Below, one piece after another: positions 22,984 through 62,820 of a stretch of DNA of 64,000 nt. Position 1 is the stretch's first letter, and each line of letters opens with the position of its first letter. The DNA comes from Burkholderia sp. WP9 (GTDB lineage: Bacteria > Pseudomonadota > Gammaproteobacteria > Burkholderiales > Burkholderiaceae), in contig NZ_FNTG01000001.1 in NCBI RefSeq assembly GCF_900104795.1, positions 1,116,001 through 1,180,000 on the forward strand, given 5' to 3'. Position numbers and translations under genes: made by a program. The notes below the pieces were generated by a model. The model saw only the letters and a list, made by a program, of their open reading frames with translations, was not told where the DNA came from and did not search any database.

Positions 22984-23248
22984 GTTTCTCTCCTGATTGG
23001 ATGACATGTTCGATGCAGCAAGCGGCAGGCCCGGCTCACGATCCGGCGCGCCACGAGCGAAGCATTCGCGCCTTATCTGCACCTGCGCAGTGCCGGCGCG
23101 CATCGCCCGAGTGCAGCCGTACGCCAGTGCGACGCGGCCGCCGCTGACGCATGGCGCCTGAACGCCCACTGCACGCGTGGCATGCTGCTTCGCAGCAGCT
23201 GGCACAACATTCGCTTAAAGGAAAATCAGAGTAGAAGCGGCTAGCGAG

Positions 23249-23348
23249 CCGGCATGTCCATGCCGGTCACCGTGGGGCATTGCTCTTGGGGCGCATCGTG
23301 CGCCCACGTCGAAGCAATTCGACGTTTGAACGGAACTGTCCGGTTCCG
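23249..23348 (+). promoter_or_regulatory. Run of four perfect hairpins upstream of the NMT1-type operon
   Basis: Four perfect stems lie within 100 bases: CCGGCATG-TC-CATGCCGG (23249-23266), GGGCGCA-TCG-TGCGCCC (23289-23305), ACGTCGAA-GCAA-TTCGACGT (23306-23325) and CGGAAC-TGTCCG-GTTCCG (23331-23348). None has a T run. They lie 250-350 bases before the binding-protein gene. The sequence reads as a structured RNA leader or a compact regulatory region, possibly a riboswitch. The rest of 22984-23599 shows no gene, only a short 12-base repeat near 23439-23475. Confidence 0.5.
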
Positions 23349-60905: not shown

Positions 60906-61063
60906 GATCGACGGGTGCGGTTTGGGATAGCTGTGACGCTGTTCACTATCGCGCGTAAGCGCCGCGTCCGGCAGGGTTGTGCGCAATGCAGAGCGCTCAA
61001 CCCTGCGCGCATCGCAATCAACAGGGATTGACAAAGCGCCTCAAGTCAACGAAGATCGAACGC

Positions 61064-61126
61064 ATGAACTGCCTCGACATCCGTATTGCGCTGATTATTA
61101 GCATCATTCATCGAATGGTGGGTTAG
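61064..61126 (+). CDS. Isoleucine-rich leader peptide of ilvA (20 residues)
   Basis: An AUG at 61064 opens a 20-codon frame ending at TAG 61124-61126. Six of its 20 residues are Ile, including the run ALIISII, with two Leu and one Val. This composition is that of attenuation leaders of branched-chain genes. A TTGACA at 61028-61033 with a weak -10 at 61051 would start transcription almost at the AUG, so the message may be leaderless or nearly so. The stop codon overlaps the antiterminator segment. Confidence 0.75.
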   Translation: MNCLDIRIALIISIIHRMVG

Positions 61127-61178
61127 CGCGCGTCTGATAGCAGTGACACATAACCCGCCACACGAGGCGGGTTTTTTT
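61117..61178 (+). terminator. ilvA attenuator: terminator and competing antiterminator
   Basis: AACCCGCC (61152-61159) and GGCGGGTT (61166-61173) form an 8-bp terminator stem with a T run to 61177. GGTGGGTTA (61117-61125), at the leader peptide's stop, can instead pair over 9 bp (one G-U) with TAACCCGCC (61151-61159) and break the terminator. A further alternative pairs GCGCT (61088-61092) with AGCGC (61125-61129) and would free the terminator. Ribosome position on the Ile codons should choose between them. Confidence 0.75.
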
Positions 61179-61245: not shown

Positions 61246-62820
61246 TTGTCGTTACACGAACTCAAACGGGCGGCCGAAGCCGCTGATAGCGTCGCGCTTC
61301 GGCACGACTACCTGAAAAAAACCCTCACCGCGCGCGTCTACGACGTGGCCCGCGAGACCGAACTCGAACGCGCGCCGAATCTGTCGGCACGTCTGCGCAA
61401 TCCGGTCTACCTGAAGCGCGAGGACAACCAGCCGGTGTTCTCGTTCAAGGTGCGCGGCGCGTACAACAAGATGGCGCATATTCCTTCCGAGGCGTTGGAA
61501 CGTGGCGTGATTACCGCGTCGGCGGGCAATCATGCGCAGGGCGTGGCGCTGTCGGCGGCGCGCATGGGCGTGAAGGCGATCATCGTGGTGCCGGTCACGA
61601 CTCCGCAAGTGAAGGTCGATGCGGTGCGCGCGCACGGCGGGCCGACCGTCGAAGTCGTGCAGTTCGGCGAATCGTATAGCGATGCGTATGGACACGCGGT
61701 GAAGCTGCAGGAAGAGCGCGGCCTGACCTTCGTGCATCCGTTCGACGATCCGTATGTGATCGCCGGGCAAGGCACCGTCGCCATGGAAATTCTCAGCCAG
61801 CATCAGGGTCCGATTCACGCGATCTTCGTGCCGATCGGCGGCGGTGGGCTCGCGGCGGGGGTGGCTGCGTACGTGAAATCGGTGCGCCCGGAGATCAAGG
61901 TGATCGGCGTGCAAACCGATGATTCGTGCGCGATGGCCGCGTCGCTGAAAGCTGGCGAGCGGGTCACGCTGAACGAAGTGGGTCTGTTCTCGGACGGCAC
62001 GGCGGTGAAACTGGTCGGCGAAGAAACCTTCCGCCTGTGCAGCGAATATCTCGACGACGTGCTGCTCGTAAATACCGACGCACTCTGCGCCGCGATCAAG
62101 GATGTTTTCCAGGACACCCGCAGCGTGCTGGAGCCCGCGGGTTCTTTGGCCGTAGCCGGTGCCAAGCAGTATGCGGAGCGCGAAGGCATCGAGAACCAGA
62201 CGCTGATCGCGATCACGTCCGGTGCGAACATGAACTTCGACCGCATGCGCTTCGTGGCCGAACGCGCCGAAGTGGGTGAAGCGCGCGAAGCCGTGTTTGC
62301 CGTGACGATCCCCGAAGAGCGCGGCAGTTTCCGGCGTTTCTGCGAACTGGTGGGCACGCGCAGCGTCACCGAGTTCAACTATCGCATTGCGGACGCGAAT
62401 TCCGCCCATATCTTCGTGGGCGTGCAGATCAGGAATCGCAGCGAATCGGCGCAGATCGCCGGCGCATTCGAAGCGCACGGGTTCGCCACAGTGGACCTCA
62501 CGTTCGACGAACTCTCCAAGCAGCACATCCGCTACATGGTGGGCGGCCGCTCGCCTCTGGCGCACGACGAACGTCTGTTCCGTTTCGAGTTTCCCGAGCG
62601 TCCGGGCGCGCTGATGAAATTCCTTTCGTCGATGGCGCCGAACTGGAATATCAGCCTGTTCCACTACCGCAACCAGGGCGCGGACTACAGCTCGATTCTG
62701 GTCGGCATCCAGGTGCCGGTGAGCGAGAACGAGGCTTTTGATCGTTTTCTCGCCACGCTCGGCTATCCGAACTGGGAAGAGACGCAAAACCCGGTGTATC
62801 GCCTGTTTCTCGCATCGTAG
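61246..62820 (+). CDS. ilvA: Threonine ammonia-lyase, biosynthetic (IlvA)
   Basis: A 524-residue PLP enzyme that converts threonine to 2-oxobutyrate, the first step to isoleucine. The PLP Lys is K68 in FSFKVRGAYNK, and PIGGGGLAAG is the phosphate loop. The C-terminal 200 residues are two ACT-like domains (allosteric isoleucine and valine binding), as in long biosynthetic IlvA. The start is TTG 61246 behind CAGGAG; the usual family N-terminus begins a little later (near HDYLKK). The upstream Ile-rich leader and terminator point to transcription attenuation. Confidence 0.95.
   Translation: MSLHELKRAAEAADSVALRHDYLKKTLTARVYDVARETELERAPNLSARLRNPVYLKREDNQPVFSFKVRGAYNKMAHIPSEALERGVITASAGNHAQGVALSAARMGVKAIIVVPVTTPQVKVDAVRAHGGPTVEVVQFGESYSDAYGHAVKLQEERGLTFVHPFDDPYVIAGQGTVAMEILSQHQGPIHAIFVPIGGGGLAAGVAAYVKSVRPEIKVIGVQTDDSCAMAASLKAGERVTLNEVGLFSDGTAVKLVGEETFRLCSEYLDDVLLVNTDALCAAIKDVFQDTRSVLEPAGSLAVAGAKQYAEREGIENQTLIAITSGANMNFDRMRFVAERAEVGEAREAVFAVTIPEERGSFRRFCELVGTRSVTEFNYRIADANSAHIFVGVQIRNRSESAQIAGAFEAHGFATVDLTFDELSKQHIRYMVGGRSPLAHDERLFRFEFPERPGALMKFLSSMAPNWNISLFHYRNQGADYSSILVGIQVPVSENEAFDRFLATLGYPNWEETQNPVYRLFLAS

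Follow-up and report, generated by a model that had tools for sequence, protein, structure and literature searches.

A predicted leaderless isoleucine attenuator of the Rfam P9 family ahead of a second ilvA copy in Burkholderia sp. WP9

The leader element and its place before ilvA

The window, which is the whole 64,000-nucleotide stretch of the Burkholderia sp. WP9 genome analysed here, carries a copy of ilvA, the gene for threonine ammonia-lyase, which is the first dedicated step to isoleucine. The encoded protein scores above the cut-offs of three threonine ammonia-lyase models and is of the biosynthetic type, and the sequence ahead of the gene holds the parts of a candidate transcription attenuator, as follows.

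61028..61056, +: predicted sigma70-type promoter, with -35 TTGACA at 61028-61033, a 17-nt spacer and a weak -10 GAAGAT at 61051-61056 (weight-matrix scan)
61064..61126, +: leader peptide ORF MNCLDIRIALIISIIHRMVG, ATG to TAG, with six Ile codons (sequence)
61091..61175, +: match to Rfam RF00624 (P9), 55.8 bits
61094..61099, +: codons 11-12 (ATT ATT, Ile-Ile), at the centre of the predicted stall site and within the stretch in which stalling would free the antiterminator
61102..61120, +: hairpin 1:2 (61102-61109 with 61113-61120), predicted anti-antiterminator (free-RNA fold, covariation)
61117..61125, +: segment 2, antiterminator 5' arm GGTGGGTTA, overlapping the leader stop codon and paired to segment 3 when the RNA is folded with a ribosome on the Ile codons
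61151..61159, +: segment 3, TAACCCGCC, common to antiterminator and terminator (sequence, folds)
61152..61178, +: intrinsic terminator 3:4 (stem 61152-61173) and T run 61174-61178 (terminator scan)
61246..62820, +: ilvA, second copy, threonine ammonia-lyase, 524 aa, TTG start (profile matches)
61303..62813, +: 96.2% identity with the main ilvA of this genome, the copy without leader (blastn)

The original prediction had named an Ile-rich frame of 20 codons, a 9-bp pairing between the end of that frame and the 5' arm of a terminator, and a T run behind that terminator just ahead of ilvA, and all of these are reproduced in the window. The frame agrees base for base, with Ile at codons 6, 8, 11, 12, 14 and 15 and the stop codon TAG at 61124-61126; 61117-61125 can pair by inspection over 9 bp with 61151-61159, one of the pairs being G-U; and the terminator scan found a stem at 61152-61173 of eight pairs, six of them G-C, followed by T5, which is the stronger of two terminator-like sites in the 401-base region, where shuffles expect 0.6. 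The 2:3 and 3:4 stems are mutually exclusive, having segment 3 in common both in the window sequence and in the folds of 68 related cassettes described below. The ilv, leu, thr, trp and his attenuators of enterobacteria likewise have a codon-rich leader, 1:2, 2:3 and 3:4 stems and a stop codon at segment 2, and those of the enteric ilv operons are well known.

A scan of the whole window against all Rfam families gave two gathering-level matches, one of which is the RF00624 match (55.8 bits against a gathering score of 43, E 3.6e-9). The other lies elsewhere, a xanthine (NMT1) riboswitch, RF03054, at 23224-23290 on the + strand with 45.9 bits. A riboswitch or T-box at 61064-61178 was considered and dropped, as no such Rfam family matches there even at E up to 1, and the Rfam Trp, Phe, Leu and Thr leaders score 27.1, 22.8, 19.7 and 18.4 bits, each below its gathering cut-off. 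RF00624 is named 'Pseudomonas sRNA P9' and is typed 'Gene' in Rfam. The element, for which the original prediction had known no described counterpart, is thus familiar as a sequence, filed as a small RNA gene. P9 is reported to have been first predicted in Pseudomonas aeruginosa, where it was detected on northern blots and its position ahead of a threonine dehydratase gene was remarked on.

Spread of the P9 element and conservation of its leader frame

The source genome has one P9 match. At E up to 0.001, P9 was found in 27 of 39 genomes of the genus sample (25 over the cut-off), in 12 of 300 of the order sample (seven over) and in 20 of 369 of the class sample (four over), the weaker class-sample matches that could be read being mostly chance-like in appearance; samples of more than 40 genomes were searched with stricter filters, at the cost of weak matches. 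Two genera of one gammaproteobacterial family have P9 over the cut-off in 28/40 and 23/25 genomes, and are taken as Pseudomonas because members there reach 92.6 bits. In one genus ilvA follows 27 of the 28 over-cutoff matches and the 28th precedes a broken ilvA; among loci of at least 65 bits in the two Pseudomonas-like genera, 34 of 35 precede an ilvA match, and three members at 82.8-86.3 bits precede ilvA. Our own model R2, which excludes the -35 and the AUG, gave matches at E up to 1e-4 in 13/300 order genomes and 37/398 phylum genomes, counts that take in some chance matches as well as one or more leaders of another kind (thrA), and from which weak matches are missing.

From P9, our models R1 and R2, one named-genome scan, and plasmid and viral matches, 72 cassettes were assembled, selected partly on the presence of a gene of six recurring families behind the leader; many of the rows are close relatives. 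Not among them are L011, L012, L040, L129, L160, L173, L174, L178, L203, the weak class loci L141-L154, L156 and L157, and L235-L284 from the two Pseudomonas-like genera. L155 repeats L128, and L123, L137-L140, L162-L172, L175-L177, L181 and L186 repeat other loci, while one genus-sample match, eight phylum-sample matches and three in each Pseudomonas-like genus sample stand outside the locus set. Judged by eye, and excepting L144, L152, L157 and L174, the left-out rows are chance matches, decayed leaders or leaders for other amino acids: L011 has a leader-like frame that lacks its stop codon, ahead of an unassigned gene, L203 is a leader before thrA and L160 a leader before leuS. The last of these (L160:2980-3062, on Rhizobium leguminosarum plasmid pRlX5) is a Leu-rich leader, MNNVRAHSLLLLALVPMVG with its stop codon, which has the same GGTGGGTTAGCGCGCG arm and a terminator and precedes a leucyl-tRNA synthetase-like gene, named by eye.

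All 72 cassettes have an upstream ATG that shares the frame of the Ile-Ile motif, with no stop between the two, against 5 and 7 cassettes for the other two frames; the ATG was chosen in frame, which makes a distance divisible by three a matter of construction, and the evidence is the three-frame count. Loss of the frame or of its Ile codons in relatives, which would have told against the original prediction, did not occur in these selected cassettes, from which two decayed copies that would fail the frame test (L040, L178) had been left out. L040 is the leftover leader beside pobA in a genome without ilvA there (G329), and has a broken frame and a mutated segment 2 with the terminator kept; L178:1501-1598 (G255) is a decayed extra leader copy with GTG in place of ATG and a damaged terminator. 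The peptide ends vary by group, with MVG, LAG, SAG, WWVF, WWVC or RIIIIP just before the stop, and the RNA arm GG[T/C]GGG (GGYGGG) is kept in 67/68 folded cassettes, as are the Ile codons. Varied peptide ends over a kept RNA arm are what a codon-reading switch would predict, and a small RNA would not.

The genes behind the 72 leaders, each assigned by tblastn, are 35 ilvA, 14 AAA_33 kinase, 8 SnoaL-like, 9 P-loop kinase, 5 PhzF and 1 GNAT. These counts bear on the idea that P9 is a small RNA acting in trans on other mRNAs, its ilvA neighbourhood being incidental, for which the Rfam name and type speak, as does the trpL attenuator of Sinorhizobium meliloti, whose RNA and peptide also act in trans according to passages of PMC7298713. 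Against it stand the presence of one of the six families behind each cassette (for which they were partly selected), the near-constant ilvA behind over-cutoff matches in one genus, the conserved frame and Ile codons, and the decay of frame and segment 2 in G329, where the gene is gone; we consider a trans-acting RNA improbable, and an attenuator acting on the gene behind it accounts better for the pattern.

Stems, promoter and the proposed switch

Covariation was read from an alignment, A3, of 74 matches fitted by the model to stems 1:2 and 3:4, two rows of which are false. Stem 1:2 is paired in 93% of cells, compared with at most 62% when slid, and 63 of its cells are changed on both sides against 13.2 in shuffles, which supplies the compensatory changes that had been looked for in this stem; counted by pairs, both-side change occurs in 6/8, not above shuffles (mean 4.7, reached by 85/500). 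The terminator 3:4 has both-side change in two pairs and five cells; one of its G-C pairs is replaced by A-U in 4/74 rows, and four P-loop leaders have CCCACC/GGTGGG instead of CCCGCC/GGCGGG. The antiterminator 2:3 has no pair with both-side change in this alignment, in which about 27 rows are shifted one column in segment 3 in the terminator and 2:3 pair counts. With the register corrected, 2:3 is fully paired in 67/68 against 65.8 in shuffles, reached by 452/2000, in a test that picks segments 2 and 3 by pattern and is thus partly circular. The comparative support for 2:3 is neutral.

The folding set comprised 68 cassettes, L006, L015, L185 and L187 being left out as their segments were not assigned. 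A ribosome placed at the second Ile codon makes 2:3 the likely fold, as long as segment 4 is yet to be made, in 67/68 cassettes, and a ribosome at the stop codon does so in 0/68. With no ribosome, 2:3 is likely before 1/35 ilvA, 0/14 AAA_33, 6/7 SnoaL, 1/7 P-loop, 0/4 PhzF and 0/1 GNAT genes. At full-length equilibrium 3:4 is favoured even with the ribosome at Ile (group means 0.91-1.00), and antitermination must therefore be kinetic, that is, depend on timing. The equilibrium preference for 3:4 also speaks in favour of a plain promoter and terminator, in which the terminator insulates ilvA, nothing is regulated and the Ile-rich frame is an accident. We regard this as very improbable in view of the in-frame conservation in 72/72 cassettes and the covariation in 1:2; an unregulated terminator would, moreover, be expected to cut the gene off from this promoter, with downstream promoters a possible way round. 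A regulated terminator fits these observations better.

Among the codons at which a stalled ribosome frees 2:3, 254/684 (37%) are Ile, against 12/584 (2%) of the other codons, and a footprint 2 nt shorter or longer gives 250/695 versus 16/573 and 211/639 versus 55/629 Ile, respectively. The search models contain ATTATT columns, which favours the finding of Ile-Ile and makes this partly a selection effect; outside the Ile-Ile codons, Ile accounts for 141/1132 (12%). This concentration of Ile in the switch-competent codons speaks against an attenuator that senses a general slowing of translation, for instance by ribosome-targeting drugs, instead of the supply of isoleucyl-tRNA, as do the place of ilvA at the entry to isoleucine synthesis, which is established knowledge, and the finding of SnoaL and ilvA behind one Ile leader in five loci. 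Such a general sensor would be easier to reconcile with the GNAT, P-loop kinase and PhzF genes, which are not known isoleucine genes, and with the PhzF leaders (RMICTT) and three AAA_33 leaders (RIFTA), which have just one or two Ile codons; we judge it unlikely, though less so than the other alternatives, and a sensor of isoleucyl-tRNA is preferred.

For the promoter, the original prediction of an RNA start at or next to the AUG is supported by comparison of the cassettes and less by the window itself. There, a weight-matrix scan finds a perfect -35 (TTGACA), a poor -10 (GAAGAT) and a predicted start at 61063-61064, at the AUG, and a stricter consensus promoter scan of the 401-base region reported none. 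A TTGNC or TTGA word starts 35-38 nt before the leader ATG in 58/72 cassettes; TTGAC itself is at this distance in 52/72, but in 0/14 of those before AAA_33. In a sigma70 weight scan the predicted start falls no more than 3 nt from the AUG in 63/72 cassettes versus 21/360 shuffled controls (34/35 ilvA, 9/14 AAA_33, 5/8 SnoaL, 9/9 P-loop, 5/5 PhzF and 1/1 GNAT), and in 9/72 no start is predicted so close. The leader RNA is thus probably leaderless, starting at or next to the AUG, and it is the comparison of cassettes, not the window sequence alone, that supports this; an RNA starting at the AUG would leave no room for a Shine-Dalgarno site. Leaderless starts are documented in related betaproteobacteria: in Burkholderia cenocepacia, according to passages of PMC4603805, the transcript start coincides with the annotated start for 72 genes and lies within 10 nt of it for another 42, and 24 of these transcripts are tRNAs, and for Cupriavidus metallidurans an excerpt of PMC7563307 gives leaderless mRNA from 4.67% of primary starts.

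Taking these lines together, we propose, with a probability of roughly 0.88, that 61064-61178 is a ribosome-mediated transcription attenuator through which the second ilvA copy would be reached only when charged tRNA-Ile is scarce, a reading for which the conserved frame, the covariation in 1:2 and the geometry common to the family all argue. Transcription would start at or one base before the AUG and the 5' end would be translated in the manner of a leaderless mRNA. When Ile-tRNA is plentiful the ribosome would reach the TAG at 61124-61126 and cover segment 2, allowing 3:4 to form and transcription to terminate; with scarce Ile-tRNA it would halt at the Ile codons 11-15, covering segment 1, upon which 2:3 would pair before segment 4 is made and the polymerase would read into ilvA. 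In the absence of translation, 1:2 and 3:4 would form and termination would follow. We infer the RNA start, translation, stalling, read-through and the benefit of an attenuated copy beside an unattenuated one from sequence.

The duplicated ilvA and the other genes behind the leader

The ilvA of the window had been called a lone gene, which is wrong: the main ilvA of the source genome, without leader, lies at G000:C1:3047748-3049277, and the window copy matches it at 96.2% over 1511 nt, with no blastn match between their upstream sequences. A leader stands before an ilvA in 24 of the 39 genus-sample genomes, nine of which have two complete ilvA genes and 15 no unbroken full-length copy, and the other 15 genus genomes, without a leader-led ilvA, have exactly one complete copy each. 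In each of the nine complete pairs a copy has its nearest relative in its partner, with support 1.000; identity is 95.75-99.34% within a genome and does not exceed 91.8% across genomes. From one genome to the next the leaders are alike, and pobA lies behind the attenuated ilvA in G000, G336, G321 and G311, the four of the nine genomes whose retrieved stretch extends far enough. A locus that looks shared, with coding parts that agree within each genome, is the pattern of gene conversion, by which the attenuated and main copies are apparently kept near-identical. Contigs of many draft genomes of the genus end inside the attenuated ilvA at varied positions (L005, L016, L018, L021, L024, L029-L032, L034 and L035), and these ends would fit a near-identical repeat breaking the assembly.

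Beyond the genus sample, two Cupriavidus replicons carry the leader before an ilvA: a 2.58-Mb megaplasmid in C. metallidurans CH34 and a plasmid of 2.51 Mb in strain EM10, whose ilvA match is split over two frames. For CH34 the RNA is predicted to start at complement 2357290 of NC_007974.2 or one base ahead of it, the leader ATG being computed from L158. These leader-led copies group with the leader-led G138 and not with the main copies of other Cupriavidus species. The named-genome IlvA scan seems to have returned mostly main leaderless ilvA, R1 finding a leader in 1/80 of its loci (L044). A contig filed as viral, IMGVR_UViG_2928170801_000001, has a P9 leader (L161:5354-5434) followed by an ilvA-like gene. 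The sequence retrieved around the copies of Cupriavidus (L158, L159) and of the viral contig (L161) shows no pobA, and neither does L044, where the contig ends early. In a Pseudomonas-like genome, L245 has an intact-looking Ile leader before an ilvA-like frame of 63 codons, to which the IlvA probe gave no match.

The families behind the cassettes were named on representatives. Those over their cut-offs are PALP/threonine ammonia-lyase, AAA_33, SnoaL/DUF4440, PhzF and Acetyltransf_3, and the P-loop kinases score below the cut-off of the model that they resemble, 'DNA topology modulation protein'. Three of the 14 AAA_33 cassettes (L182-L184) have a SnoaL gene between leader and kinase, and L006 encodes a SnoaL-AAA_33 fusion protein. 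In one Pseudomonas-like genus, 20 of the 23 over-cutoff matches divide into 13 with leader, SnoaL and AAA_33 and seven with ilvA, and five of these seven have a SnoaL gene behind the leader and ahead of ilvA; at L268, L270 and L271, three of these five loci, the SnoaL frame ends where ilvA starts. The leader shared by SnoaL-ilvA and SnoaL-AAA_33 pairs ties both of these poorly characterised families to isoleucine, and the SnoaL-like and AAA_33 proteins likely take part in a response to isoleucine shortage; that they handle the reactive product of IlvA is a guess.

Two further candidate links were dropped. A tie of other downstream genes to phage defence failed when PADLOC matched only two P-loop kinases of seven proteins, at 16.9-20.8 bits. 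The GNAT behind an Ile leader (L126:1649-2245) resembles the GNAT part of the NCBIfam model ileS_w_GNAT at 63.1 bits (cut-off 1999); as L126 also resembles ordinary GNAT structures among 15 PDB sequences, its link to Ile-tRNA was given up, and another GNAT, beside a PhzF gene, gave no match to the ileS_w_GNAT model. At L009:1618-3081 a PhzF gene behind a leader is followed by a GNAT gene.

Considering the P9 elements together, we hold at slightly better than even odds that they form one class of leaderless isoleucine attenuators across Pseudomonadota, and are not small RNA genes, controlling a so far unrecognised isoleucine-shortage regulon. In this regulon, the SnoaL-like (DUF4440) protein and the AAA_33 kinase, which their pairs behind one leader and the fusion protein connect with each other and the SnoaL-ilvA pairs connect with IlvA, would be induced with threonine deaminase, and the P-loop kinase, PhzF and GNAT would be further members. 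Where Rfam has a small RNA gene, the present reading is a leader-peptide attenuator acting in cis, whose cassette precedes five gene types besides ilvA.

The type of mechanism is textbook and already known. Unlike the enterobacterial attenuators, the window RNA is predicted to start at the AUG, with no room for a Shine-Dalgarno site, and its target is a duplicated ilvA where theirs is an operon. The start of the RNA with the ATG of the leader ORF is described for rhizobial trpL of S. meliloti in passages of PMC7298713, and is predicted likewise here; trpL has Trp codons and belongs to an alphaproteobacterium, while the window element has Ile codons and belongs to Rfam P9, a comparison made by description and not by sequence. 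In Corynebacterium ilvBNC and in the attenuators of Staphylococcus and Listeria, as far as the partial accounts describe them, a branched-chain leader peptide controls branched-chain genes, as here, in other phyla and with other targets; these too are compared by description only. Among the matches listed from open PMC full text, judged by title and start of abstract and with Livny 2006 and Vitreschak 2004 outside this scope, none presents P9, or an ilvA leader of Burkholderia or Pseudomonas, as an attenuator. 'RF00624' does not occur in the open PMC full text searched, and the passages checked of papers bearing on P9 or leaderless starts do not mention ilvA or PA0331. The leaderless P9 version, its duplicated target, its reach and its gene set are thus new to the literature searched, outside which the two likeliest papers lie.

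Read in this way, an orphan 'sRNA' family becomes a testable cis switch with a named signal, the charging of tRNA-Ile, and the SnoaL-like/DUF4440 proteins and AAA_33 kinases would gain a first physiological handle, isoleucine shortage, together with a partner in IlvA. The attenuated and unattenuated near-identical ilvA genes form a natural pair, which brings its own internal control for measuring leader function. Should the leaderless start be confirmed, isoleucine attenuation can run without a Shine-Dalgarno start, and the unrelated genes behind the same element would be predicted to answer to isoleucine shortage too.
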